28,033 nucleotides of DNA from a virus, in IMG/VR virus record IMGVR_UViG_3300024518_000910, positions 1 through 28,033 of that record; one strand, 5' to 3'. Below the pieces are notes generated by a model. The model saw only the letters and a list, made by a program, of their open reading frames with translations. It ran no database searches and was not told the origin of the DNA. This document shows, one piece after another, positions 6,371 to 28,033 of the stretch. How positions within the stretch are numbered: the first letter of the stretch is position 1; each line of letters begins with the position of its first letter. The position numbers and the translations under genes are program-made.

Positions 6371-6925
6371 ATGAATTTATTTGAAATAGTTAACAACAAT
6401 GTGACTTTTAGTCCACAAGCATTATTAGTAAGACCATTTAAAGATATATGGCATGCTGATGAAAGTAAAGATAAGCATACTGCTAATTTAGAAATGGCTT
6501 ATGTTTATTATATGACTGATGAAAGAAGTGATTTTATGCACATACTTGATATAGAAGAAAGAGAAGAAGAGGTAAAAAGGTGGTTAGATCTTCCTGAAAG
6601 CTGGAGTGGTCAAAGAAAAAGTATTGTTAGAGCTATGCATTATTACCAATTAATGTCAGAGACTACAAGTACTAAGTTGTTACAAAGCACGAGGCTTGTA
6701 CTTCAGAAGATTTCTGAATTTCTTGACAATATCAATATGAATGAGCGTGATGAAAGGTCAAAGAAGCCTATACATGATATAAGTAAAATTACATCTGCTG
6801 TGGAAAAAATACCAAAGCTTATTAAAGCTATAAATGAAATTGAGAAAGAAGTAATAAAAGAAAAAGAACTTAAAGCACAGTCAGGGAATAGAACCCAGTC
6901 TATGTTTGACGATCAAGGTATATGA
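6371..6925 (+). CDS. Putative terminase small subunit (184 aa)
   Basis: A 184-residue charged, almost entirely helical protein directly upstream of terL; its stop overlaps the terL ATG. The size, position and long C-terminal helices (LLQSTRLVLQKISEFLDN; VEKIPKLIKAINEIEKEVIK) fit a small terminase subunit, which recognises phage DNA and regulates TerL as an oligomer. No classic helix-turn-helix is obvious in the N-terminal half, which begins with a conserved-looking NVTFSPQALLVRPFKDIW. The function rests mainly on context; a conserved structural accessory is the alternative. Confidence 0.6.
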   Translation: MNLFEIVNNNVTFSPQALLVRPFKDIWHADESKDKHTANLEMAYVYYMTDERSDFMHILDIEEREEEVKRWLDLPESWSGQRKSIVRAMHYYQLMSETTSTKLLQSTRLVLQKISEFLDNINMNERDERSKKPIHDISKITSAVEKIPKLIKAINEIEKEVIKEKELKAQSGNRTQSMFDDQGI

Positions 6926-9276
6926 TGAGAAAGTTTAATTATATACAGACAGAACTTACTCAAGAACTCTTGGATAAAATGCCAAGAGATGAAAAGCAGG
7001 ATTTACTTGATAATATAGATTCTATTCAATTTATACAGAATTTAATATCTCCAACAAGAAAATATGCTAAAGATTTAAAAAGATGGGATAATCCTTTGTT
7101 GCCAGAGACAAGCTTAGACTCTACAATGAATGTAAGGAAGCTAAATCCAAAGGGAAGAATAGCAGTAAATTTAACAAATCCTCATATACTGGAGGACATG
7201 GATTACTTTAGACCATCTGCTATTCACTTTGAAAAGCATAAGTGTTACACCAAATTATTCCCTAACCGGAACCCTAATTCAGAGTATTATAAGTTTTGGG
7301 CAGAAGAAGCAAGAAGATGTAGAGAAGGATATATAAGAGATTACGATGGTGAGTGGATACCTGGTAATTATTATTATCAATTAAATTACGCTCCATTATT
7401 AAGAGCAGAAATTATAGAAGGAACAAAACAAGCTGACAGGCTTGAGGGATTTGCATTTGTATATGATGCAGATTACTTGTTTTTTCATTATGTAGAACAA
7501 GCAAGAGCGCAAGGTAAGCACGGGGCCAATCTAAAAAGAAGAGGTTGTGGTTATTCTGTTAAGGCATCAAATATGTTGGCCAAGAACTTTATACTTGGCG
7601 ACACTACAAAAGCAAAAGAAAAGGTAAAGTCATTTGCAATAGCAAATGAAAAAGAATATCTAATTAAGGATGGTATTCTAAATAAATTTGTCAATGTAAT
7701 TGACTGGAATGCAACTCATACTCCGTGGCCAAGAATCAGATCTTTAAAAGATTCATTGAATGATATGCACTGGAGAATGGGTCGTAAAGATAATGTAAAG
7801 GGTATTGAAATTGGTGTACTTAATGAGGTTATGGGTGTTACATTAAAAAATGACCCTCAGAAAGCAAGGGGTAAAAGGGGTGCTTTAGTACTGTGGGAAG
7901 AAGCTGGTAAATTCTCTGACTTCCTTACTGCATGGAAAATTGCACAACCGTCTGTTGAAGAATCTGGATTTGCATTTGGATTTATGATGGCTGGTGGAAC
8001 CGGTGGTGTTGAAGGTGGAGCCTTTGAAGGTCTTGAAGAGATATTCTATAATTCATCTGGTTATAACATTATGTCTATGCCTAATGTGTTTGATAGAAAT
8101 ACAAATGGCAAAGGAGAATGTGCATTCTTTTTCGGAACATATCTTAACTATCGTGGAAAGATGGACAAGAATGGTAACAGTGATGTTATCGGAGCAATGA
8201 TTCAGATTAATAGTAAAAGGACTCAGATTAAAAATGGAGCTTCAGATCCTAATGCAATTGTTCAGGCAAAAGCTGAAGAGCCAATTACTCCACAAGAAGC
8301 AATCATGCGTACAGAAGGAACAGCTTTCCCTGTTGCTGATTTAAGAGATTACCTTGAAGACATTGCTCCTGAGCTTAATTCTTTTGTAGATTCTCACTGG
8401 GTCGGCCATTTATCGTATGATGAAAAAGGATTTTTAAAGTGGGTTAATGACCCCGATAAAAGACCAATACGTGATTATCCATTTAAAGTAAAAGGAGGTA
8501 TTAACTCTGATGGCGCTATTGAAATCTTTGAGATGCCAAACAAAGATAGAGATGGTAATGTGTTTCAAAATAGATATATTGCCGGTATTGACCCAATTGA
8601 TAATGATTATACTATGGGAGGATCTCTTGCTAGTATATTTGTTTTTGATTTATGGACAGATAAGATAGTTGCAGAATATACTGGAAGACCAGTATTAGCA
8701 GATGAGTTCTATGAAAAGTGTTTGAGGCTTACAGCATTTTATAATGCTCAGGCAAATTACGAAAATAACCTCAAGGGACTTTTTACATACTTTTCCAATA
8801 ATAATGCCTTGTATTTATTAGCAGACAGTCCAGATATCCTACGTGATATGGATATTGTAAAAAGTGTGTTACATGGTAACAGATCTAAAGGAACTAGAAC
8901 AACAAAAGAGATAATTAAATTAGGAAAAACCCTTCAAAGACAATGGATGCTAAGTCCATACGAAGAAGAAAGATACGATGACTCAACTGGAGATGTTATC
9001 GAAATTAATATGCCAAACCTAAGAAGAATAAGAAGTATTGGTTATATAAAAGAATGTATAGCATGGAATCCAGATATAAACACGGATAGGGTATCAGCAA
9101 TGGATATGGTAATGATACTAAGAGAAGATAGAGCCAAGATGACGGAGAAGTATGAAGAAAGTAGAACAGAGAATGTTAATATGTTTTTTCATGATGATGA
9201 ATTTCTAGATTCTAATTGGCAAAAAGCTGTATCTAAGATGGGTAACTCAAATAACGATGGATTTGGAATCATTTAG
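6922..9276 (+). CDS. terL: Terminase large subunit, ATPase and nuclease (784 aa)
   Basis: DNA-packaging motor and headful/end-cutting nuclease. The P-loop at about 205-215 reads KRRGCGYSVKA, lacking a GK[ST] ending but resembling the lambda gpA variant with the basic residue at the start (KSARVGYSK). Walker B is ALVLWEEAG (D/E pair E326-E327). The RNase-H-type nuclease follows: GIDPIDND with D557, an acidic E614 in YENNLKG, and D728 in MDMVMIL. The protein is longer than most TerLs (typically 450-650 aa), with about 200 N-terminal residues before the P-loop, as in crAss-like and related Bacteroidota phages. It overlaps the small subunit by 4 nt (ATGA); a second ATG follows immediately (6925). 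Confidence 0.95.
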   Translation: MMRKFNYIQTELTQELLDKMPRDEKQDLLDNIDSIQFIQNLISPTRKYAKDLKRWDNPLLPETSLDSTMNVRKLNPKGRIAVNLTNPHILEDMDYFRPSAIHFEKHKCYTKLFPNRNPNSEYYKFWAEEARRCREGYIRDYDGEWIPGNYYYQLNYAPLLRAEIIEGTKQADRLEGFAFVYDADYLFFHYVEQARAQGKHGANLKRRGCGYSVKASNMLAKNFILGDTTKAKEKVKSFAIANEKEYLIKDGILNKFVNVIDWNATHTPWPRIRSLKDSLNDMHWRMGRKDNVKGIEIGVLNEVMGVTLKNDPQKARGKRGALVLWEEAGKFSDFLTAWKIAQPSVEESGFAFGFMMAGGTGGVEGGAFEGLEEIFYNSSGYNIMSMPNVFDRNTNGKGECAFFFGTYLNYRGKMDKNGNSDVIGAMIQINSKRTQIKNGASDPNAIVQAKAEEPITPQEAIMRTEGTAFPVADLRDYLEDIAPELNSFVDSHWVGHLSYDEKGFLKWVNDPDKRPIRDYPFKVKGGINSDGAIEIFEMPNKDRDGNVFQNRYIAGIDPIDNDYTMGGSLASIFVFDLWTDKIVAEYTGRPVLADEFYEKCLRLTAFYNAQANYENNLKGLFTYFSNNNALYLLADSPDILRDMDIVKSVLHGNRSKGTRTTKEIIKLGKTLQRQWMLSPYEEERYDDSTGDVIEINMPNLRRIRSIGYIKECIAWNPDINTDRVSAMDMVMILREDRAKMTEKYEESRTENVNMFFHDDEFLDSNWQKAVSKMGNSNNDGFGII

Positions 9277-19506: not shown

Positions 19507-22248
19507 ATGACAATATTTAATCAAGATTTAAGTGTATTAGGAAATTTAACTTTAGCATTAACAAATTCTACTGGTAATATTATTACATTAGACGGCACTG
19601 GTATTGCTAGATTTAGAACCCCAACTGAGGTTCTTACTGATATTGGCGCAGCTTCATTAATACACACTCATTCTATAAAAGATCTATCTGATGTATTTAG
19701 TTCTATGACACCAACGCATGGTCAGGTTCTTACTTATGATTCTGTAAATGGATGGCAGTCAGAAACTCCTGGAAATGGAAATGGAAATGGAGGTGGAGGT
19801 GGAGGTGGAATGGTATATCCAGGATCTGGAATTGCTGTATCTACTGGAGCTTCATGGGGAACTTCAATAACAGATAATTCTGCAAACTGGAATACTGCTT
19901 TTGGGTGGGGAGACCACGCAGGATTATATGATGATTACTCTAGTTGGAACCTTAAAACTAATGGTGTACAAAGAACTACTGTAACATCTAGTGGTGATTT
20001 AGATTTAGTTGCAGGAACTGACATAAGTTTGTCTTATGGAGCAGGGGGAGTGGTAACTATTAATAGCACATTCACACCTAGTTACTTTACACCAACCTCT
20101 CTTTTAGCAGATTACGGATTTACTGATGATAGTGCTAATTGGAATACAGCTTACACGAATAGAATAACATCTTTAACCACTACGGGAAGTTCCGGAGCAT
20201 CTACATTAACAACCAATACTCTAAATATACCTAACTATACACTATCAGGATTAGGCTACACTGGTGATTTAAACGCTAATGAATATGTACACCCATCTGG
20301 TGATGGAAATTTACATGTCCCTGCTAATGGCATAACTAATAATGGTAAGGTATTAACAGCTGGGGCAACAGCAGGACTTTATACTTGGGAAACTATTCCT
20401 GCAGGAGTAACAGATCATACGCTACTTAGTAATATAGGCTCAAACTCACACGCGCAAATAGATACTGCTATTGGCGGTTATTTATCACACGCTGCGAATT
20501 CATCAATACATTTTACAGAAAACCCAAACTGGAACACAGCTTTTGGATGGGGTGACCATGCTTTAGAGGGTTATTTAGCATCTTTCACGGTTGCCAATAG
20601 TACATTTGTAAGTTTATTTGATTCAGGGACATTAACCGAGCCAATTATTACAGCAAGTTTATCAGCAACAGGAACGGCAGATGCTACAACCTTTTTAAGA
20701 GGAGATAATACATGGACCGCTTTAGTTTCATTCCCTGGGTTTACTAACCTATTAACTGATTACGGATTTACCAATAACAGCGCAAATTGGAATACGGCCT
20801 TTAGCTGGGGAGATCACTCTTTAGTGGGTTACTTAACTAGCTACACAGAAACAGATCCAATATTTGTAGCATCTCCGGCAGGGGGTATAACCAATACTGA
20901 CATAACAAATTGGAATAACTCATTTAGTTGGGGTGACCACTCAGGATTATATTTACCAACATCAACAGTATTACCGGTAACTAAGTCATTAGTAGCTAAC
21001 CAATTCTTTACATCTTATAACTCTGCTACCGGAGCTTTTACGTCTGCTCAAGTGGCTTATAGTGGGTTAAGTGGGATACCATCTACTTTTACCCCGTCTG
21101 CCCATACACTAGACTCACACTCTAACGTAACTATCACATCTAACACAAGTGGTGAGCTATTAAAATGGAATGGGTCAGCTTGGATAAATAATACACTTGC
21201 AGAAGCAGGAATATTAAGTACATCTGGTACAGCTGCTAATTCAACATTATTTAATTCTTTAAATAGTGGTCAATTTTTAAGAAGTGATTCTTTTGATACC
21301 CAAACTGGTGGTATAAGATTTACTAATAATACTGTCATTAGTTTAGGTGATAGTGATGATGTTAGACATTTTCATAATGGTACACATTACTATACTGATA
21401 TATACACTGGAGATTGGTTTATTAGAGATACCGGAACTACTAGATTCACATTTGGTAGAACTAGTGGTAATTTTACTGCTACCGGAAATGTAGGTATAGG
21501 AGTGACTAATCCTTACACAAAACTAGAAGTAGTAGGTACAATAGCTTCCGGAGCTGGAGCATCTGCAGGGAATCTTGGAATGGAATTTGGGGGATTATTA
21601 ACCCCTACTGCTATGCCATCTCAAGTTAGAGGTGTAATTGGTGCTTTAAATAGTGCTACAGGAGTTTCTGCAGGGTCTATTGGCTATCAACCTAGAACTG
21701 GCGTTGGTGCATCTCATATATTTTTTACTGAACAAACTGAAAAGATGAGAATTACCTCTACTGGTAATGTATCTATAGGAAATACAAATAATACATATAA
21801 ATTAGATGTATCTGGTACTGGTAGGTTTACTGGAGATGTTATTGTTCCTGATGAAGCTTATGGAGTAAGCTGGAATGCTTCTTTAGAGGTTCCTACTAAG
21901 AATGCTGTTTATGATAAAATTGAAACTATTATACCTTATAAAGTTTACACAGCATTGCTAACTCAAACAGGAACGTCAGCACCTACCGCAATAGTTTTAG
22001 AAAATACATTAGGTGGTACAGTTGTGTGGACAAGATTATCAACGGGAACATATGTTGGGACATTAGCTAGCGCTTTTACAGTAAACAAAACAGCGGCGTT
22101 TATAACAAGTGGCTCTTCGGTAGCAATAACATCTACAGTTTGGTCAGACACAGTAAATACTGTTAAAGTAGCTACAACAATTATGTCCGGGGCAATATCA
22201 GACAGTCTTTTAGTACAAGCATCAGTAAAAATAATAGTATACCCATAA
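19507..22248 (+). CDS. Long tail fibre with tandem NWNTAFxWGDH repeats (913 aa)
   Basis: A Ser/Thr/Asn-rich fibre. The N-terminus is a short structural motif (FNQDLSVLGNLTLALTNSTG), then LTDIGAASLIHTHSIKDLSD and a Gly-rich hinge (a run of eight G/N at about 93-101). NWNTA[FY] motifs occur at N127, N211, N341, N427 and N468; four of the five continue as xWGDHxxxGY, a common tandem shaft element of Bacteroidota phage fibres. Residues about 660-720 contain NVGIGVTNPYTKLEVVGT, typical of tail-fibre shafts just before a chaperone/head domain, and SIGNTNNTYKLDVSGTGRFT. LEVPTKNAVYDKIETI precedes a C-terminal beta domain ending SVKIIVYP. No peptidase S74 intramolecular chaperone motif is obvious. It is the last gene of the fibre operon. 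Confidence 0.75.
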   Translation: MTIFNQDLSVLGNLTLALTNSTGNIITLDGTGIARFRTPTEVLTDIGAASLIHTHSIKDLSDVFSSMTPTHGQVLTYDSVNGWQSETPGNGNGNGGGGGGGMVYPGSGIAVSTGASWGTSITDNSANWNTAFGWGDHAGLYDDYSSWNLKTNGVQRTTVTSSGDLDLVAGTDISLSYGAGGVVTINSTFTPSYFTPTSLLADYGFTDDSANWNTAYTNRITSLTTTGSSGASTLTTNTLNIPNYTLSGLGYTGDLNANEYVHPSGDGNLHVPANGITNNGKVLTAGATAGLYTWETIPAGVTDHTLLSNIGSNSHAQIDTAIGGYLSHAANSSIHFTENPNWNTAFGWGDHALEGYLASFTVANSTFVSLFDSGTLTEPIITASLSATGTADATTFLRGDNTWTALVSFPGFTNLLTDYGFTNNSANWNTAFSWGDHSLVGYLTSYTETDPIFVASPAGGITNTDITNWNNSFSWGDHSGLYLPTSTVLPVTKSLVANQFFTSYNSATGAFTSAQVAYSGLSGIPSTFTPSAHTLDSHSNVTITSNTSGELLKWNGSAWINNTLAEAGILSTSGTAANSTLFNSLNSGQFLRSDSFDTQTGGIRFTNNTVISLGDSDDVRHFHNGTHYYTDIYTGDWFIRDTGTTRFTFGRTSGNFTATGNVGIGVTNPYTKLEVVGTIASGAGASAGNLGMEFGGLLTPTAMPSQVRGVIGALNSATGVSAGSIGYQPRTGVGASHIFFTEQTEKMRITSTGNVSIGNTNNTYKLDVSGTGRFTGDVIVPDEAYGVSWNASLEVPTKNAVYDKIETIIPYKVYTALLTQTGTSAPTAIVLENTLGGTVVWTRLSTGTYVGTLASAFTVNKTAAFITSGSSVAITSTVWSDTVNTVKVATTIMSGAISDSLLVQASVKIIVYP
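19885..20946 (+). repeat. Imperfect tandem protein repeats NWNTA[F/Y]xWGDH
   Basis: Five NWN[T/N] units inside the 913-aa fibre. DNA is similar (for example aactggaatactgcttttgg, aactggaacacagcttttgg) but third codon positions have diverged, so the copies are old. Spacings of 84, 130, 86 and 41 residues show insertions between units. Confidence 0.7.
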
Positions 22249-22358: not shown

Positions 22359-22850
22359 ATGAATTCAATATCTTTATTTTTTGGCAAACTGACTTTAGAG
22401 AAAAAGGCATTAATTCTAACCTTAACACCAATCTTAACTGTTTTGTTAAACCTAAAACCAATGTTACTTGGCTTAACCATGCTAATCCTATTAGACCTAC
22501 TAACTGGAATACGTAAAAGTTTACACAAAAAAAATCTTAAATTTAATCCCTTTAAAAAATATTTTTGGCAAATATTGCATTCTAAAGGAATAAGAGGTAC
22601 TTGGAGAAAAACTTATGAATATGGAATTGGAATTATAACTTTCATTATTTTTGAAACTATGGTTCTTAATATATCTCCAATAGCATTAGGTAATGCTGTA
22701 TTTACTTTATCTGAATTATCTGTTGTTGCAGCAACTTTGGTTGAGATATATTCTGTATTTGAAAACATGGAAGCTGTAAGTGGAAGAAATATGCTAAAAA
22801 AAGTACAATTTCTTTTCCCGGAATGGTTAAAGAAGTTATTAGAAAAATAA
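22359..22850 (+). CDS. Phage holin-like protein (163 aa)
   Basis: Membrane protein with an N-terminal pair of hydrophobic helices (about 17-50, including ALILTLTPILTVLLNLKPML and LLGLTMLILLDLLTGI) and a third around 90-108 (GIGIITFIIFETMVLNI). The arrangement LLDLLTGIRKS ... KGIRGTWRK ... ELSVVAATLVEIYSVFENME ... GRNMLKKVQFLFP matches the phage holin family 4 pattern (D.[LT]TG..., later E..S...N). It immediately precedes the endolysin, which supports a role in timed membrane permeabilisation. The C-terminus is basic. Confidence 0.8.
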   Translation: MNSISLFFGKLTLEKKALILTLTPILTVLLNLKPMLLGLTMLILLDLLTGIRKSLHKKNLKFNPFKKYFWQILHSKGIRGTWRKTYEYGIGIITFIIFETMVLNISPIALGNAVFTLSELSVVAATLVEIYSVFENMEAVSGRNMLKKVQFLFPEWLKKLLEK

Positions 22851-22863
22851 ACCAAAAATAAAT

Positions 22864-22956
22864 GTGGAGACTGCTATCAACATTCATCAAGTCATTAAGG
22901 AAGAAGAAGGATCAAAAAAAGATAGCAACGAGTCAACCCCTGAAGAAATACAATAA
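22864..22956 (+). other. Small open frame between holin and endolysin (30 aa)
   Basis: A GTG at 22864 opens VETAINIHQVIKEEEGSKK then DSNESTPEEIQ, ending TAA 22954-22956, 4 nt before the preferred endolysin ATG (22961). The sequence is acidic and helix-like with normal codon use. The same frame is open further upstream to an in-frame stop at the very end of the holin gene, so it could also be a frameshift extension of the holin. The alternative is a chance frame. Confidence 0.35.
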
Positions 22957-22960
22957 AGAT

Positions 22961-23434
22961 ATGGGATTTAAGTTTAGCAACAATAGCGCCACAAAATTAG
23001 CAACATGTCATGAAGATATACAAAAGGTATTTAACCTTGTTATATCTAGAAGTAATGTTGATTTCGGGATAGCAGAAGGATATAGAACAGTTGAGAAACA
23101 ACAATCATATTACGCGATAGGAAGAACTATACAACTTCATCGTAGTACAATTACTAATGTTGACGGTATAGTTAAAAAAGGAAAGCACAACTACAATCCA
23201 TCTAAAGCAATTGATATTTACGTATGGCATGATGATACTAATACTAGAAAGAAAATTTCTTATGATGGTATGCATTTAGCTTATATTGCAGGACTTGTAG
23301 ATTCTTGCTCAAAAGAATTAAAAGATAAAGGAGAAATTACACATAACATAACATGGGGAGGAAATTGGGATTCAGACGGTATAATTATATTTGATCAGAA
23401 TTTAGATGATATGCCACATTTTGAAATAACTTAA
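22961..23434 (+). CDS. Endolysin, M15-type L-alanyl-D-glutamate peptidase (157 aa)
   Basis: Degrades host peptidoglycan at lysis. It opens MGFKFSNNSATKLATCHEDI like T5-type M15 endolysins (FxFSxxSxxxLxxxHxxL). Conserved zinc-site residues: H76 and D85 in KHNYNPSKAID, and H153 in DMPHFE; GYRT (40-43) precedes QQ..YY, and WGGNWDSDG is the typical loop. The frame is open 33 codons upstream (ATG at 22862), but that adds a basic stretch unlike the family, and another coding-like frame occupies it, so 22961 is preferred. No signal peptide, so it should depend on the holin. Confidence 0.92.
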   Translation: MGFKFSNNSATKLATCHEDIQKVFNLVISRSNVDFGIAEGYRTVEKQQSYYAIGRTIQLHRSTITNVDGIVKKGKHNYNPSKAIDIYVWHDDTNTRKKISYDGMHLAYIAGLVDSCSKELKDKGEITHNITWGGNWDSDGIIIFDQNLDDMPHFEIT

Positions 23435-23450
23435 TAAAAAAAAATATAAA

Positions 23451-24107
23451 ATGTCAAAAAGATTTAACATAGTATCTCAGTCATTGGTAGTGACTGACTC
23501 AATTACAGGCAATATATTGCTTGATTTTCCTAAATCAAAAATTTACTATAATGCTGAAAAACTAGAAAGAGACTCGATAGTTTATATATACAATATAGAC
23601 GATGATGAAGAAAGACTAGATGAAAGAACTAAAATATTTTCATTATCAGACTGTGTTGATGGAGATAATGCAGACGCTGTTTTTAATATTTCTACTTTTA
23701 AAACATTTGTAAGGCAGAATCTGGGTTTTAAGACAGCCTCGGGAGGTAGCGGGGCAGTATCTTCTGTTTTTGGTAGAACAGGAGGTGTTTCAGCTCAAGC
23801 TGGTGATTATGACGCTGATAAAATAACAGAAACTGCTAATAGAGTTTTTGTCACTCCAGCAGAAAAAGCAGCTATAGGTAGCGGAGGAGTATCTTCTTAT
23901 TCTGAAACATTTGGCGATGGTGTTTTGTCTACAATACGAATAACACACAATTTAAACACAACTGATTTCACGCATAGAGTTAAAGAAGTAGCAACAGGTC
24001 GTGATGCGGGTGTAACTGTAAAAGATTTTGATGCTAATAATGTAGATGTTGAAAGTGGGGTTGTAATAGGCTTAAATGAACTAAGAATAACAATTATAAA
24101 ATCATAA
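23451..24107 (+). CDS. Fibre-type protein with FGRTG and HNL modules (218 aa)
   Basis: Residues 1-85 are a beta-rich head (SKRFNIVSQSLVVTDSITGN; KIYYNAEKLERDSIVYIYNI). About 95-140 contains VSSVFGRTGGVSAQAGDYDA then DKITETANRVFVTPAEKAAI, the standard VFGRTG.V.A..GDY..[DE]I shaft motif of phage fibres and tail adaptors. Residues about 155-218 form a C-terminal module centred on IRITHNLNTTDFTHRV that ends VVIGLNELRITIIKS, a cousin of the HNL module in the 17645 gene. It sits just after the endolysin, suggesting the fibre module continues past the lysis genes. Function: receptor-binding or fibre accessory; inferred. Confidence 0.65.
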   Translation: MSKRFNIVSQSLVVTDSITGNILLDFPKSKIYYNAEKLERDSIVYIYNIDDDEERLDERTKIFSLSDCVDGDNADAVFNISTFKTFVRQNLGFKTASGGSGAVSSVFGRTGGVSAQAGDYDADKITETANRVFVTPAEKAAIGSGGVSSYSETFGDGVLSTIRITHNLNTTDFTHRVKEVATGRDAGVTVKDFDANNVDVESGVVIGLNELRITIIKS

Positions 24108-24117
24108 TAGAATTAAA

Positions 24118-25908
24118 ATGAAAAAAATATTTTTGTTAGCAACTATACTCATAACAACACTTTCTTTTTCTCAAAAAAAGATGTACGGTAATTACGATTA
24201 TTTAGGTACAGTTGATTTTTTAGGTACAATTAATATAAACGGTGTTCCTTTATCTCAAGTAAACACAGCATCAACTTTAGTAGCATACAACGCAACAGTT
24301 AGTGATGCTTACACAAGCGCACAGCCAAATAGACACATCACATTAGCAGGTAATTCTGATATAACAGTTACAGGTGGTGTAAGTGGAGATAGTGGTTTAT
24401 GGTATTTATATGGTACAGGAACAGCAACTTTAAATAATACAGATGCTAGCACTTTAGTAGTTCCTGTAAGTGGTAATTTAAAAGTAGTTTATTTTTTAGT
24501 TGATAAAGATGATAATTTAACATGGTATCAAGATGAAAATAGCGGTGGTAGTGGCGCAGTAGCAGTACAAACAGCAACAGGTGATGGTACAACTACTATT
24601 AATTGGACTGTTTCACCTTTTATGGATTTTACTTTTGGTGCTTTTAATGAAATTATTACAATGACACCTCCTGCATATCCTGAAAGGTTAAGATTAAAAT
24701 TAACACAAGATGGTGTAGGAAGCAGAACAGTAACTTGGGGCAATGATGTTTATGTGCCAAGTGGGATAATGCCAACTTTAAGCACAGGCGCAGGTGACAT
24801 AGATGTTGTAAATTTATTTTGGAATGGTGTAGATTTTGAATTAGACGAAGATTTCTTAGATTATCAATTAGTAGCAGGGGTAGATTCAGAAGCACCAACC
24901 GCACCAACAGGATTAGCTTCATCAAATGTTACAGAAACTACTTTAGATTTAACATGGACAGCAGCTACAGATAACGTTGCAGTAACTAATTATAAGGTTT
25001 ACCAAGATGCGGTAGAAATAGCTAGTTTAGGTAATGTACTAACATATAATGTTACGGGTTTAACTGCCAGTACTGCTTATGCTTTTACAGTTACAGCTTT
25101 AGATATCGCAGCAAATGAAAGTGTTGTTAGTAATACGGTTAATGTTACTACTAACGCATCAGGCGTTACTAATTATGCGGCTAATTTAATTGCAGCAGGA
25201 ACTTTTACTGCAGAAGAACAAACTTTAATTAATAATTTCTTTGCGACTTTAGATACAGACACAACTATTTATGACCAAATAGATGCTATGTATATGTTTA
25301 TTGGAACTACTGCTGCAAATCAGAATTTTAATGCAATGAATCCTGTTGATACAGATGCGGCATTTAGATTAACCCCACTAGCTACCATAACAAGAGATAA
25401 AGAGGGTGCTATTGGAGCAATGAATACTTTTTATGATTTTTCTGTAAATGGAGTTACGAATAGTGTGCATGTTTCTTATTATTCTTATACGTCTGCTGCT
25501 GTTGCAGGTAATACAGAGATGGGAGTTCTTGGTGGAGGTAGAATGTTATTAGATATTAAAGAAGGTGGTACAGGAACATCTAACTTTGATTGTTATAGTT
25601 TTGGTGCAGGTAGAGTTTCTTTTAATACTGCAAATGCTTTTGGATATTTTATTGGAAATAGAACAGGTACTACATTTAGTGAATTAGTACATGAGGGTGT
25701 ACAGGTAAATTCTATAGCTACTACATCGGGAACCCCTCCTACAGGAAATACATATCTAAATGCCTATAACGCAACAGGCAATACATCACAAGCTTCATCT
25801 AAAAAATGTGGATTTGCAACTATTGGTAAAGGATTATCACCTTCACAATGGGCATTACTAGATTCAGCAGTTCAAACTTTTGTAGATGGTAAAACAGCTT
25901 TACCATAA
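24118..25908 (+). CDS. Secreted FN3-domain protein with Sec signal peptide (596 aa)
   Basis: N-terminal MKKIFLLATILITTLSFSQ is a clear flavobacterial Sec signal peptide (n-region KK, hydrophobic core, SFS-Q cleavage). Residues 20-45 carry a beta motif (YGNYDYLGTVDFLGTININ). A fibronectin type III domain lies at about 258-346 (APTAPTGLASSNVTETTLDL then TWTAATDNVAVTNYKVYQDA, YNVTGLTASTAYAFTVTALD). The last 240 residues form an unassigned beta-rich domain (AANLIAAGTFTAEEQTLINN ... FATIGKGLSPSQWALLDSAV). A phage structural gene would not need a signal peptide, so the product is either exported and surface-bound in the infected cell or a fibre recruited from host secreted proteins. First of three such genes. 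Confidence 0.7.
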   Translation: MKKIFLLATILITTLSFSQKKMYGNYDYLGTVDFLGTININGVPLSQVNTASTLVAYNATVSDAYTSAQPNRHITLAGNSDITVTGGVSGDSGLWYLYGTGTATLNNTDASTLVVPVSGNLKVVYFLVDKDDNLTWYQDENSGGSGAVAVQTATGDGTTTINWTVSPFMDFTFGAFNEIITMTPPAYPERLRLKLTQDGVGSRTVTWGNDVYVPSGIMPTLSTGAGDIDVVNLFWNGVDFELDEDFLDYQLVAGVDSEAPTAPTGLASSNVTETTLDLTWTAATDNVAVTNYKVYQDAVEIASLGNVLTYNVTGLTASTAYAFTVTALDIAANESVVSNTVNVTTNASGVTNYAANLIAAGTFTAEEQTLINNFFATLDTDTTIYDQIDAMYMFIGTTAANQNFNAMNPVDTDAAFRLTPLATITRDKEGAIGAMNTFYDFSVNGVTNSVHVSYYSYTSAAVAGNTEMGVLGGGRMLLDIKEGGTGTSNFDCYSFGAGRVSFNTANAFGYFIGNRTGTTFSELVHEGVQVNSIATTSGTPPTGNTYLNAYNATGNTSQASSKKCGFATIGKGLSPSQWALLDSAVQTFVDGKTALP

Positions 25909-25923
25909 TTTAAAATAAATAAC

Positions 25924-27183
25924 ATGAAAAAAATAAATTTAATAATAGCCTTACTATTTGTAACATTAGCAATAGCACAAAAACGAAATGGAAATTTAGA
26001 TGTTGATGGTAGTGTTACTATTAATGGCAATATTAATGTTACAGGAAGTATTACAGGTGATGTTACAGGTGTAACGCTAGAAGGTAGTATTGATAGTTAT
26101 TTTGGTACTGCAATTAATAAATTTAATCCATCTTTAATTTTACCTGCTACTTCTGTAAATCCTAATGATGGAACAACGGGTAGTAGTGGCACTTTTAGTG
26201 CATCAGGTAGGCAAAAAGTAGAACCTAATAAACGTTATTACATTACTTATTCTGAATTTCCAAATAGTGTAGAGCAACCAACAGGTGCATTAAGAGCCTT
26301 TTATGATATAAATGGAAACTATGTTAATTGGAGTAATTTAGCTTTAGAAGCAGATAATAGTTGGATAGTACCTGCAAATGTACATTACGCACAATGGGCT
26401 AATACAGGAACAATGCCTGTAACAACACAACTTATTGAAGCATCAGATTTAATTACGCCAATTGTTTTGCCTATTGCAAAAGCAGTACAAGGCGGTGTTA
26501 TTTTTGACCCATTACAAGTAAATTTGCAAGATGCTTATTTAAGACAAATATTCTTACCTCTTTATAGTGAAAAATGGGTTTTAATGGGTGATAGTATAAC
26601 TCAACAAGGTAAATATATAGCCTTTACACAACGCTCAACGGGTTTAATTATAGATACTAATATTGGTGTTGGTGGTGCTTTACTAGGTGGTATGGCTAAT
26701 AATCTAACGCAACAAATGGTAGATGATGCCGATGTTATAACAGTTTATGGTGGCACTAATGATTATGGTTTAAGTTCTTCACCAATTGGTACTATTGCTG
26801 ATGCTTCAAATATAAATAGTTTTTACGGGCAAGTAAAGAATTGTTTAGAAACCATACACAACCTTATAGATTCAAGTAGTTTAACAATTCAAGAAAAGGC
26901 TGAAAAATTAGTTGTTTTTGTTACACCTGTTCAAAGGGGGACATCACAAGGCTATACACCACCAGAAGCAGGTGCGGGAGGTAAAACTCTTTTACAAATA
27001 AGAAATGCAATTATACAAGTTTGCGCTGAATTTGGAACGCCTGTATATGATGCTTATGCTTTATCTGGATTAAATAATACAAATATGCAATATCTATCAG
27101 ACCAATTACACCCATTAGACGAAGGTTCTGTTTATGGTGTTGGTTTAGGTAAATTTTTAAATCTTAATTATAAAGGGTTTTAA
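25924..27183 (+). CDS. Secreted SGNH/GDSL-type esterase (419 aa)
   Basis: Signal peptide MKKINLIIALLFVTLAIAQ, then a short beta-repeat stretch (VDGSVTINGNINVTGSITGD, about 28-47) and a linker/jelly-roll-like part to about residue 215. The catalytic domain follows with all four SGNH blocks: I, MGDSITQQG with Ser224; II, GVGGALLGG with a Gly; III, YGGTNDYG with G277 and N279; V, DQLHP with D393 and H396. These are the nucleophile, oxyanion-hole residues and acid/base of SGNH hydrolases, which cleave ester bonds (often acetyl groups on sugars). All catalytic residues are present. A deacetylase/esterase acting on surface polysaccharide, helping adsorption or host modification, is the likeliest role. 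Confidence 0.85.
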   Translation: MKKINLIIALLFVTLAIAQKRNGNLDVDGSVTINGNINVTGSITGDVTGVTLEGSIDSYFGTAINKFNPSLILPATSVNPNDGTTGSSGTFSASGRQKVEPNKRYYITYSEFPNSVEQPTGALRAFYDINGNYVNWSNLALEADNSWIVPANVHYAQWANTGTMPVTTQLIEASDLITPIVLPIAKAVQGGVIFDPLQVNLQDAYLRQIFLPLYSEKWVLMGDSITQQGKYIAFTQRSTGLIIDTNIGVGGALLGGMANNLTQQMVDDADVITVYGGTNDYGLSSSPIGTIADASNINSFYGQVKNCLETIHNLIDSSSLTIQEKAEKLVVFVTPVQRGTSQGYTPPEAGAGGKTLLQIRNAIIQVCAEFGTPVYDAYALSGLNNTNMQYLSDQLHPLDEGSVYGVGLGKFLNLNYKGF

Positions 27184-28033
27184 ATGAAAAAACTACTAAC
27201 ATATATTACACTATTAACTTTCTTTATTAATTACGGGCAAGTTGTGGGTGTTATTTCACAACAAAATAGTAAAAATTCTATTAACGAAGTTGTTGTTACG
27301 CCACCTACTACAAATAATATGATTGATGAGCAATTATATTTTGATGCTTATTTTTTACCTATTGCACAAAAAGCAGAGATACAAACAGCTTTAAATACCT
27401 ACGGGAGTGTAAGATTGGATAAAGGGGATTATAGTGGTGTTCCAATAACCATGACATCAAACCAAAGTTTATACGGGCATCCAGAAGTTACCACAGTTTC
27501 ACCAATTACTATTGCAGCAGGTAGCACAGGTGGAAGGTTAGAATCTGTAAAAATTTTAACAAGTCAAGATATAACTTTTGAAGATGGCGCACCTATTACA
27601 AATTGGACTTTAAAGCATATTGGGGGTACAAGATTATATACTTTAGGAGGTAGTTTAGAAGATAATTTGTTTATAGATATTAACGCTAGAATTTATTTTG
27701 ATTGTGGTGTTTCTGGTTATTTAAGAAATAATAGAGTATATCGACAAGCTGTAAGTACAATATCACCACAATTAATATTAAATGGTAATAATACAACGCC
27801 TAGTGATGGAAACTTATTTGTTTGGGGGAATTACTTAACACCTAATGGTGATGCTGTTTTAATTGATAATTTAGGTGATTTTACTTTTATAGGTTTAGAT
27901 TCCGAAGGTTGGAATTTAAGAAATGAAGAAACTGTAAACGCTATGTTTTATGCTAGAAACATGGGTGAAGTTATTATTACAGATTTTGGTGGTGCAAATG
28001 GTTATCAAGCAGCAAACGAAACAAGGGCATGGG
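27184..28033 (+). CDS. Secreted beta-helix-like protein, cut by window edge (partial)
   Basis: The ATG at 27184 follows the previous stop directly (TAAATG) and stays open to the end of the window (283 codons seen). It begins MKKLLTYITLLTFFINYGQ, the third consecutive flavobacterial signal peptide, cleaved around YG-Q. From about residue 65 a run of short beta strands with Asn/Asp/Gly turns (LNTYGSVRLDKGDYSGVPIT; SLYGHPEV; ESVKILTSQDITFEDGAPIT; LKHIGGTRLYTLGG; FIDINARIYFDCGVSGYLRN) reads as a right-handed beta-helix of the pectate-lyase/tailspike kind. This fits a depolymerase or tailspike partner for the neighbouring esterase. No catalytic residues can be assigned. The C-terminus is outside the window. 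Confidence 0.65.
   Translation, partial: MKKLLTYITLLTFFINYGQVVGVISQQNSKNSINEVVVTPPTTNNMIDEQLYFDAYFLPIAQKAEIQTALNTYGSVRLDKGDYSGVPITMTSNQSLYGHPEVTTVSPITIAAGSTGGRLESVKILTSQDITFEDGAPITNWTLKHIGGTRLYTLGGSLEDNLFIDINARIYFDCGVSGYLRNNRVYRQAVSTISPQLILNGNNTTPSDGNLFVWGNYLTPNGDAVLIDNLGDFTFIGLDSEGWNLRNEETVNAMFYARNMGEVIITDFGGANGYQAANETRAW

Follow-up and report, generated by a model that had tools for sequence, protein, structure and literature searches.

Signal-peptide cassette at the 3' end of the window

The stretch of DNA analysed here, referred to as the window, comprises all 28,033 bases of the IMG/VR virus record IMGVR_UViG_3300024518_000910 and carries about 26 non-overlapping open reading frames (ORFs). 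An initial annotation had described three consecutive genes with Sec signal peptides at its 3' end, and our analysis confirmed them, at the positions listed below, as three adjacent plus-strand ORFs, with gaps (beginning with the one upstream of gene 1) of 10, 15 and 0 bases. These three genes are called the cassette.

24118 to 25908, plus strand: gene 1, 596 amino acids; signal peptide, short repeat-like N-terminal module, tail-fibre-like region at residues 172-239, FN3 domain at 262-331, C-terminal domain of unassigned fold
24118 to 24174, plus strand: gene 1 signal peptide, MKKIFLLATILITTLSFS/Q, 18 amino acids plus the Gln codon (rule-based scan)
25924 to 27183, plus strand: gene 2, 419 amino acids; signal peptide, short N-terminal module like that of gene 1, C-terminal SGNH/GDSL hydrolase at about 216-401
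25924 to 25980, plus strand: gene 2 signal peptide, MKKINLIIALLFVTLAIA/Q (rule-based scan)
27184 to 28033, plus strand: gene 3, first 283 amino acids (codons up to 28032), running off the contig end; signal peptide, then a Pro/Thr linker and a body that is probably beta-helical (by eye)
27184 to 27240, plus strand: gene 3 signal peptide, MKKLLTYITLLTFFINYG/Q (rule-based scan)

Signal peptides were called by a rule-based scan for Sec/signal peptidase I substrates rather than by SignalP, and among the window ORFs the scan flagged genes 1-3 and no others. Each of the three signal peptides is 18 residues long and combines a positive n-region, a hydrophobic h-region, a small residue at position -1 and Gln at +1, the last being the Q-rule of Bacteroidota. 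The cleavage contexts, with a slash at the predicted cut, are TLSFS/QKK for gene 1, TLAIA/QKR for gene 2 and FFINYG/QVV for gene 3; the Asn at -3 of gene 3 is atypical, and its homologue in the related contig G001 reads GNA/Q. As a control, shuffled N-termini were called as signal peptides in 7 of 3360 cases, with +1 Gln in 0, in comparison to 3 calls for 168 real ORFs from the window and three relatives, all with +1 Gln and all in the cassette. A Gln at +1 is found in more than 60% of the signal peptidase I substrates of Porphyromonas gingivalis and has been tied to pyroglutamate and protein stability (PMC5837995; PMC10653852). The signal peptides of genes 1-3 are genuine flavobacterial-type signal peptides, as the initial annotation had stated, and the host is very probably a member of the Bacteroidota. 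For the further proposal that the exported proteins alter the surface of the infected cell, a route to the surface before lysis is not apparent: NCBIfam gave no C-terminal sorting domain of the type IX secretion system in genes 1 and 2 or in the G001 homologue of gene 3 (gene 3 itself being truncated), and the cassette proteins show no lipobox Cys.

Of the modules initially read in the three bodies, FN3 and SGNH were recovered by profile, while the beta-helix obtained neither a profile match nor a usable model. The FN3 domain of gene 1 matches PF00041 (E 1.3e-8), and the protein also matches phrog_9017, a tail fiber protein family. Gene 2 matches PF13472 Lipase_GDSL_2 (E 4e-12, 47.4 bits against a cut-off of 32.9) with catalytic blocks GDSIT at 222 (Ser224), GGTND at 276 (Asn279) and DQLHP at 393 (Asp393, His396), and its best PHROG is phrog_5240, again a tail fiber protein (E 9.6e-19); its predicted structure (predicted local distance difference test, pLDDT, 35) was too poor for use. 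These motifs make the gene 2 product a candidate glycan-ester hydrolase, and to that extent the earlier description of a secreted glycan-modifying set has a catalytic domain behind it, but it was overstated for the cassette as a whole, gene 2 alone being demonstrably catalytic. A viral-contig scan with gene 2 found no relative, and the SGNH domain had no match in ten fragments bearing a terminase large subunit (TerL), these fragments being short. Gene 3 is 85% identical to the first 282 amino acids of a 762-residue G001 protein, and neither of the two has a Pfam, NCBIfam or PHROGs match or a credible PDB match, so that gene 3, unlike genes 1 and 2, lacks a tail fibre or spike family match in PHROGs. 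The AlphaFold model of the 762-residue homologue (pLDDT 33) is unusable; the body of gene 3 is likely beta-helical as judged by eye.

Equivalent cassettes in cultured Cellulophaga phages

Rows of genes with Q-type signal peptides were found in the fibre/pectate-lyase region of the Cellulophaga phages phi10:1, phi13:2, phi19:1, phi19:3, phi46:3, phi18:3, Ingeline and Nekkels, which span the families Assiduviridae, Pachyviridae and Duneviridae. Experimental detection in virions by tandem mass spectrometry (MS/MS) is noted for 10 of the 11 Q-type cassette proteins of phi10:1, phi19:1 and phi18:3, a count restricted to phages with MS/MS notes of their own and leaving out phi13:2, phi19:3 and phi46:3, which were annotated by similarity. 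The noted proteins are gp091-gp094 of phi10:1, gp101-gp103 of phi19:1 and gp85-gp87 of phi18:3, with gp095 of phi10:1 alone unmarked. These records weaken the earlier argument that virion proteins need no Sec signal and that the cassette proteins are hence not virion proteins. In phi10:1, MS/MS marks were carried by 4 of 6 coding sequences with a signal peptide in comparison to 8 of 92 others (Fisher test, p ~0.002), 4 of the 12 marks resting on partly visible notes, and the other MS/MS-noted proteins of this phage are head, tail or unnamed structural proteins, with no stray enzymes among them. The same pectate-lyase domain, 44-49% identical and without a signal peptide, is virion-annotated in phi14:2 (by its own MS/MS) and in phi17:2 (by similarity to phi4:1).

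The signal-peptide codons in the Cellulophaga cassettes are under purifying selection, most clearly in the pair phi10:1 gp093 and phi18:3 gp86, where they differ by 7 synonymous and 0 non-synonymous changes (proportions of synonymous and non-synonymous differences, pS 0.48 and pN 0.00) in comparison to a pN of 0.13 over the next 97 codons. Two side observations concern these phages: in the phi19:3 genome a tail fibre gene with a signal peptide is present twice (L100, 9339-10250 and 12638-13552), and phi10:1 gp093 (L097, 44100-46433) belongs to PHROG 11548, which is filed under moron/auxiliary metabolic genes, yet is noted in virions by MS/MS.

The cassette slot in the crAss-like lineage

The phage is assigned to the Crassvirales (crAss-like phages) by its TerL and by its portal protein (phrog_6547, E 9.4e-128); the capsid was seen in relatives only, as the window ends upstream of the capsid gene. 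Within this lineage, the stretch from the endolysin to the scaffold/capsid genes forms a slot of varying content, and the cassette lies just downstream of the endolysin.

6922 to 9276, plus strand: terminase large subunit; phrog_6681, E 3.7e-103; 41-44% identical to crAss-like phages
22862 to 23434, plus strand: endolysin, bounding the variable slot on its upstream side; phrog_465 endolysin, E 5.6e-32; siblings 80-88% identical

G003 and G004 have no genes in the slot, G015 and L116 have four there that lack signal peptides, and four with signal peptides occupy it in G001, a 65.7-kb contig whose four adjacent Q-type signal-peptide genes are the nearest relative of the cassette. The slot genes without signal peptides in L115 (10482-16883) and L116 (4975-11376) encode 298, 570, 598 and 622 amino acids, the last three without a Pfam match. 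Among 331 ORFs of 10 related records, Q-type signal peptides numbered four, solely in the homologous G001 cassette, and none was found in the other lineage relatives with sequence examined. A capsid protein 84% identical to that of G003, together with synteny, places G001 in the same crAss-like lineage, and on these grounds the reading of G001 as an unrelated siphovirus, suggested by a tape-measure gene, was rejected. At 53-65 kb of this contig (L072, L091, L126), the tape-measure gene and other siphovirus-like genes adjoin the crAss-like capsid module, the junction lying close to the fibre cassette, and this end reflects either phage mosaicism or chimeric assembly.

Genes 1 and 3 each have a G001 counterpart with homology along most of its length, and a further G001 gene has the N-terminus of gene 1 in common. 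Residues 43-595 of gene 1 are 66% identical to a G001 protein carrying a different signal peptide, while residues 1-50 are 82% identical to the N-terminus of another, sialidase-like G001 protein, the likeness being confined to these 50 residues; the body of gene 1 therefore recurs in G001 under a swapped N-terminus that is again a signal peptide followed by Q. For gene 3, the signal peptide has diverged from that of G001 (pN 0.29) while the body is near identical (pN 0.01), and a signal peptide with Q is kept. Across the compared cassettes, nearly all distinct signal peptides have +1 Gln, with one clear exception, MRNIVLILLFFNISFSFG/K. A conserved N-terminal module with variable C-terminal domains, by which tail fibres and spikes are recognised, was found through the comparisons of gene 1 with G001, and residues 1-81 of the G001 homologue of gene 1 are 41% identical to the virion-annotated phi19:1 gp101 (E 1.6e-6), a segment that gene 1 of the window does not have.

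The remaining genes between the terminase and the cassette that bear on the late region are the following.

19507 to 22248, plus strand: conventional tail fibre protein, 913 amino acids, without signal peptide; phrog_9729 tail fiber protein, E 2.4e-23
22359 to 22850, plus strand: holin-like gene; PF05105 Phage_holin_4_1, E 6.9e-6
23451 to 24107, plus strand: 218-residue protein between endolysin and cassette, with fibre-like fragments and without signal peptide; phrog_16348 and phrog_8309 matches

Upstream of the terminase, the window encodes a phage GroEL (2407-4053; phrog_5725, E 5e-141), which the siblings have too. The TerL of G006 (L084, 7879-10226) is split into three ORFs by frameshifts or insertion. 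Other environmental virus contigs also carry signal-peptide proteins: L136 and L137 (6121-13409) have three adjacent ones of 394, 625 and 1407 amino acids, with +1 Gln clear in two and, in the first, following a longer signal peptide, and L134 (5271-9065) encodes a protein of 1265 or more amino acids with a Q-type signal peptide and matches to tail spike and virion structural PHROGs.

Discussion

We give an even chance to the reading that genes 1-3 form a variable, recombining tail fibre/spike cassette of a crAss-like phage, with working Sec/signal peptidase I signals of the Q-rule type, whose products are exported and then attached to the virion at lysis; each gene is proposed to encode an adhesin or a glycan-active protein. 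Although the signal peptides appear to be in use and under selection, proteins bearing them are recorded in virions; export followed by attachment at lysis fits both. Two observations favour the reading: the remaining phi10:1 proteins with MS/MS notes are structural, and the modular layout matches that of spikes. The cassette proteins would be made late, together with the lysis genes, and exported by the host Sec machinery; they would be cut before the Gln, which the host glutaminyl cyclase would convert to pyroglutamate, and the mature proteins would be kept in the periplasm. The tails would acquire them when holin and endolysin mix virions and periplasm, or just after release. Cleavage, cyclisation, presence in the virions of this phage and attachment after export are all predicted steps. 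More broadly, the results suggest that some phage tail fibres leave the cytoplasm before joining the virion. Somewhat more tentatively, and at a little under an even chance, Bacteroidota tailed phages may export receptor-binding fibres and spikes via Sec, with cutting and cyclisation in the periplasm and the virion completed outside the cytoplasm as the cell lyses, the export-ready cassette moving between unrelated families.

Several points weigh against attachment of exported fibres. The virion status of the window proteins is a prediction from sequence, the MS/MS status of the relatives was taken from notes in GenBank/RefSeq records and not from the source paper, and the homology to virion-annotated proteins runs through a homologue, by way of its short N-terminal module, and not through the window proteins themselves. 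Secreted proteins can adhere to virions and co-purify, and an exported protein would meet the virion only at lysis. The flavobacterial phages 11b, P2559S, P12024S and 6H are without such a cassette, which is a feature of some flavobacterial phages and not of all. We found no description of Sec-exported tail fibres in a literature search that had most subscription journals outside its scope, and no literature commenting on the signal peptides of the Cellulophaga cassettes.

An unlikely but serious alternative is that the products are free secreted enzymes or adhesins, held in the periplasm until lysis and then acting in soluble form, as depolymerases or as decoys for receptors, to remove glycans or cover receptors on debris and neighbouring cells, the MS/MS records of relatives being adhering contaminants. 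Adhesion of free proteins to particles would also account for used signals together with virion records, gene 2 has an enzymatic domain, and the Q-rule proteins of Porphyromonas phages were considered by those who described them to be possible modifiers of the outer membrane (PMC10367356). Contamination, however, would have to extend to nearly all of the MS/MS-assessed cassette proteins in three phages; in phi10:1 the remaining noted proteins are structural and not stray enzymes, and a conserved N-terminus with a variable C-terminus is the pattern of tail spikes. It is considerably less probable that the hydrophobic N-terminus stays uncleaved and is packed into the tail, its likeness to a signal peptide being incidental; this is the case that the initial annotation had named as its own refutation. 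Such an anchor would agree with the virion records of relatives and with an N-terminal module kept while C-termini vary, but a small -1 residue with +1 Gln is a signature of signal peptidase I and glutaminyl cyclase that serves no packing need (PMC5837995), the near-universal Gln speaks against a buried anchor, which would not require it, and the same body bears other signal peptides instead of one conserved hydrophobic anchor. Recent capture of host secreted genes as morons that serve the host or stay idle is very improbable: the signal peptides are host-type and the FN3 domain matches those of a bacterial chitinase and exoglucanase, but phage tail fibre PHROGs are among the families that gene 2 matches best, the cassette is located in the late tail/lysis region, and the host-genome check called for earlier, run as two scans for exact peptides in 84,980 genomes of bacteria and archaea, gave no relative of gene 2 or 3, a weak result that reaches close relatives only.

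Exported fibres would matter since, in the textbook view, tailed phages are finished in the cytoplasm before lysis, with which virion-annotated fibres bearing selected Q-rule signals clash. If the reading of genes 1-3 as exported fibres is true, the annotation of Bacteroidota phages changes, in that a signal peptide no longer counts against a virion protein (PHROG 11548, for example).

Comparison with known systems

Use of the host Sec pathway is known for other phage proteins, such as signal-arrest-release (SAR) endolysins and the coat proteins of filamentous phages. Lambda Lom is a Sec-exported phage protein found outside tails (PMC12309495). Unlike the fibres of tailed phages, all of these are lysis or envelope proteins or parts of virions assembled at the membrane. 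Similar to gene 2, the SGNH tail proteins (phrog_5240; gp25 of Croceibacter phage P2559S) place an SGNH esterase domain in a tail-type protein, but the scan used here called no signal peptide in gp25. The Nixviridae phages of P. gingivalis likewise encode Q-rule signal-peptide proteins, but these are five genes without assigned function, and no tail-fibre cassette was described (PMC10367356). The Cellulophaga cassettes (phi10:1 gp091-095, phi19:1 gp101-104, phi18:3 gp85-87) belong to other phage families, have pectate lyases where the window has SGNH and FN3 domains, and carry virion notes, whereas for the window virion association is predicted. They share with the cassette of the window three to five adjacent late Sec signal-peptide genes, nearly all with +1 Gln, a modular N-terminus, a variable C-terminus and fibre- or depolymerase-like domains.

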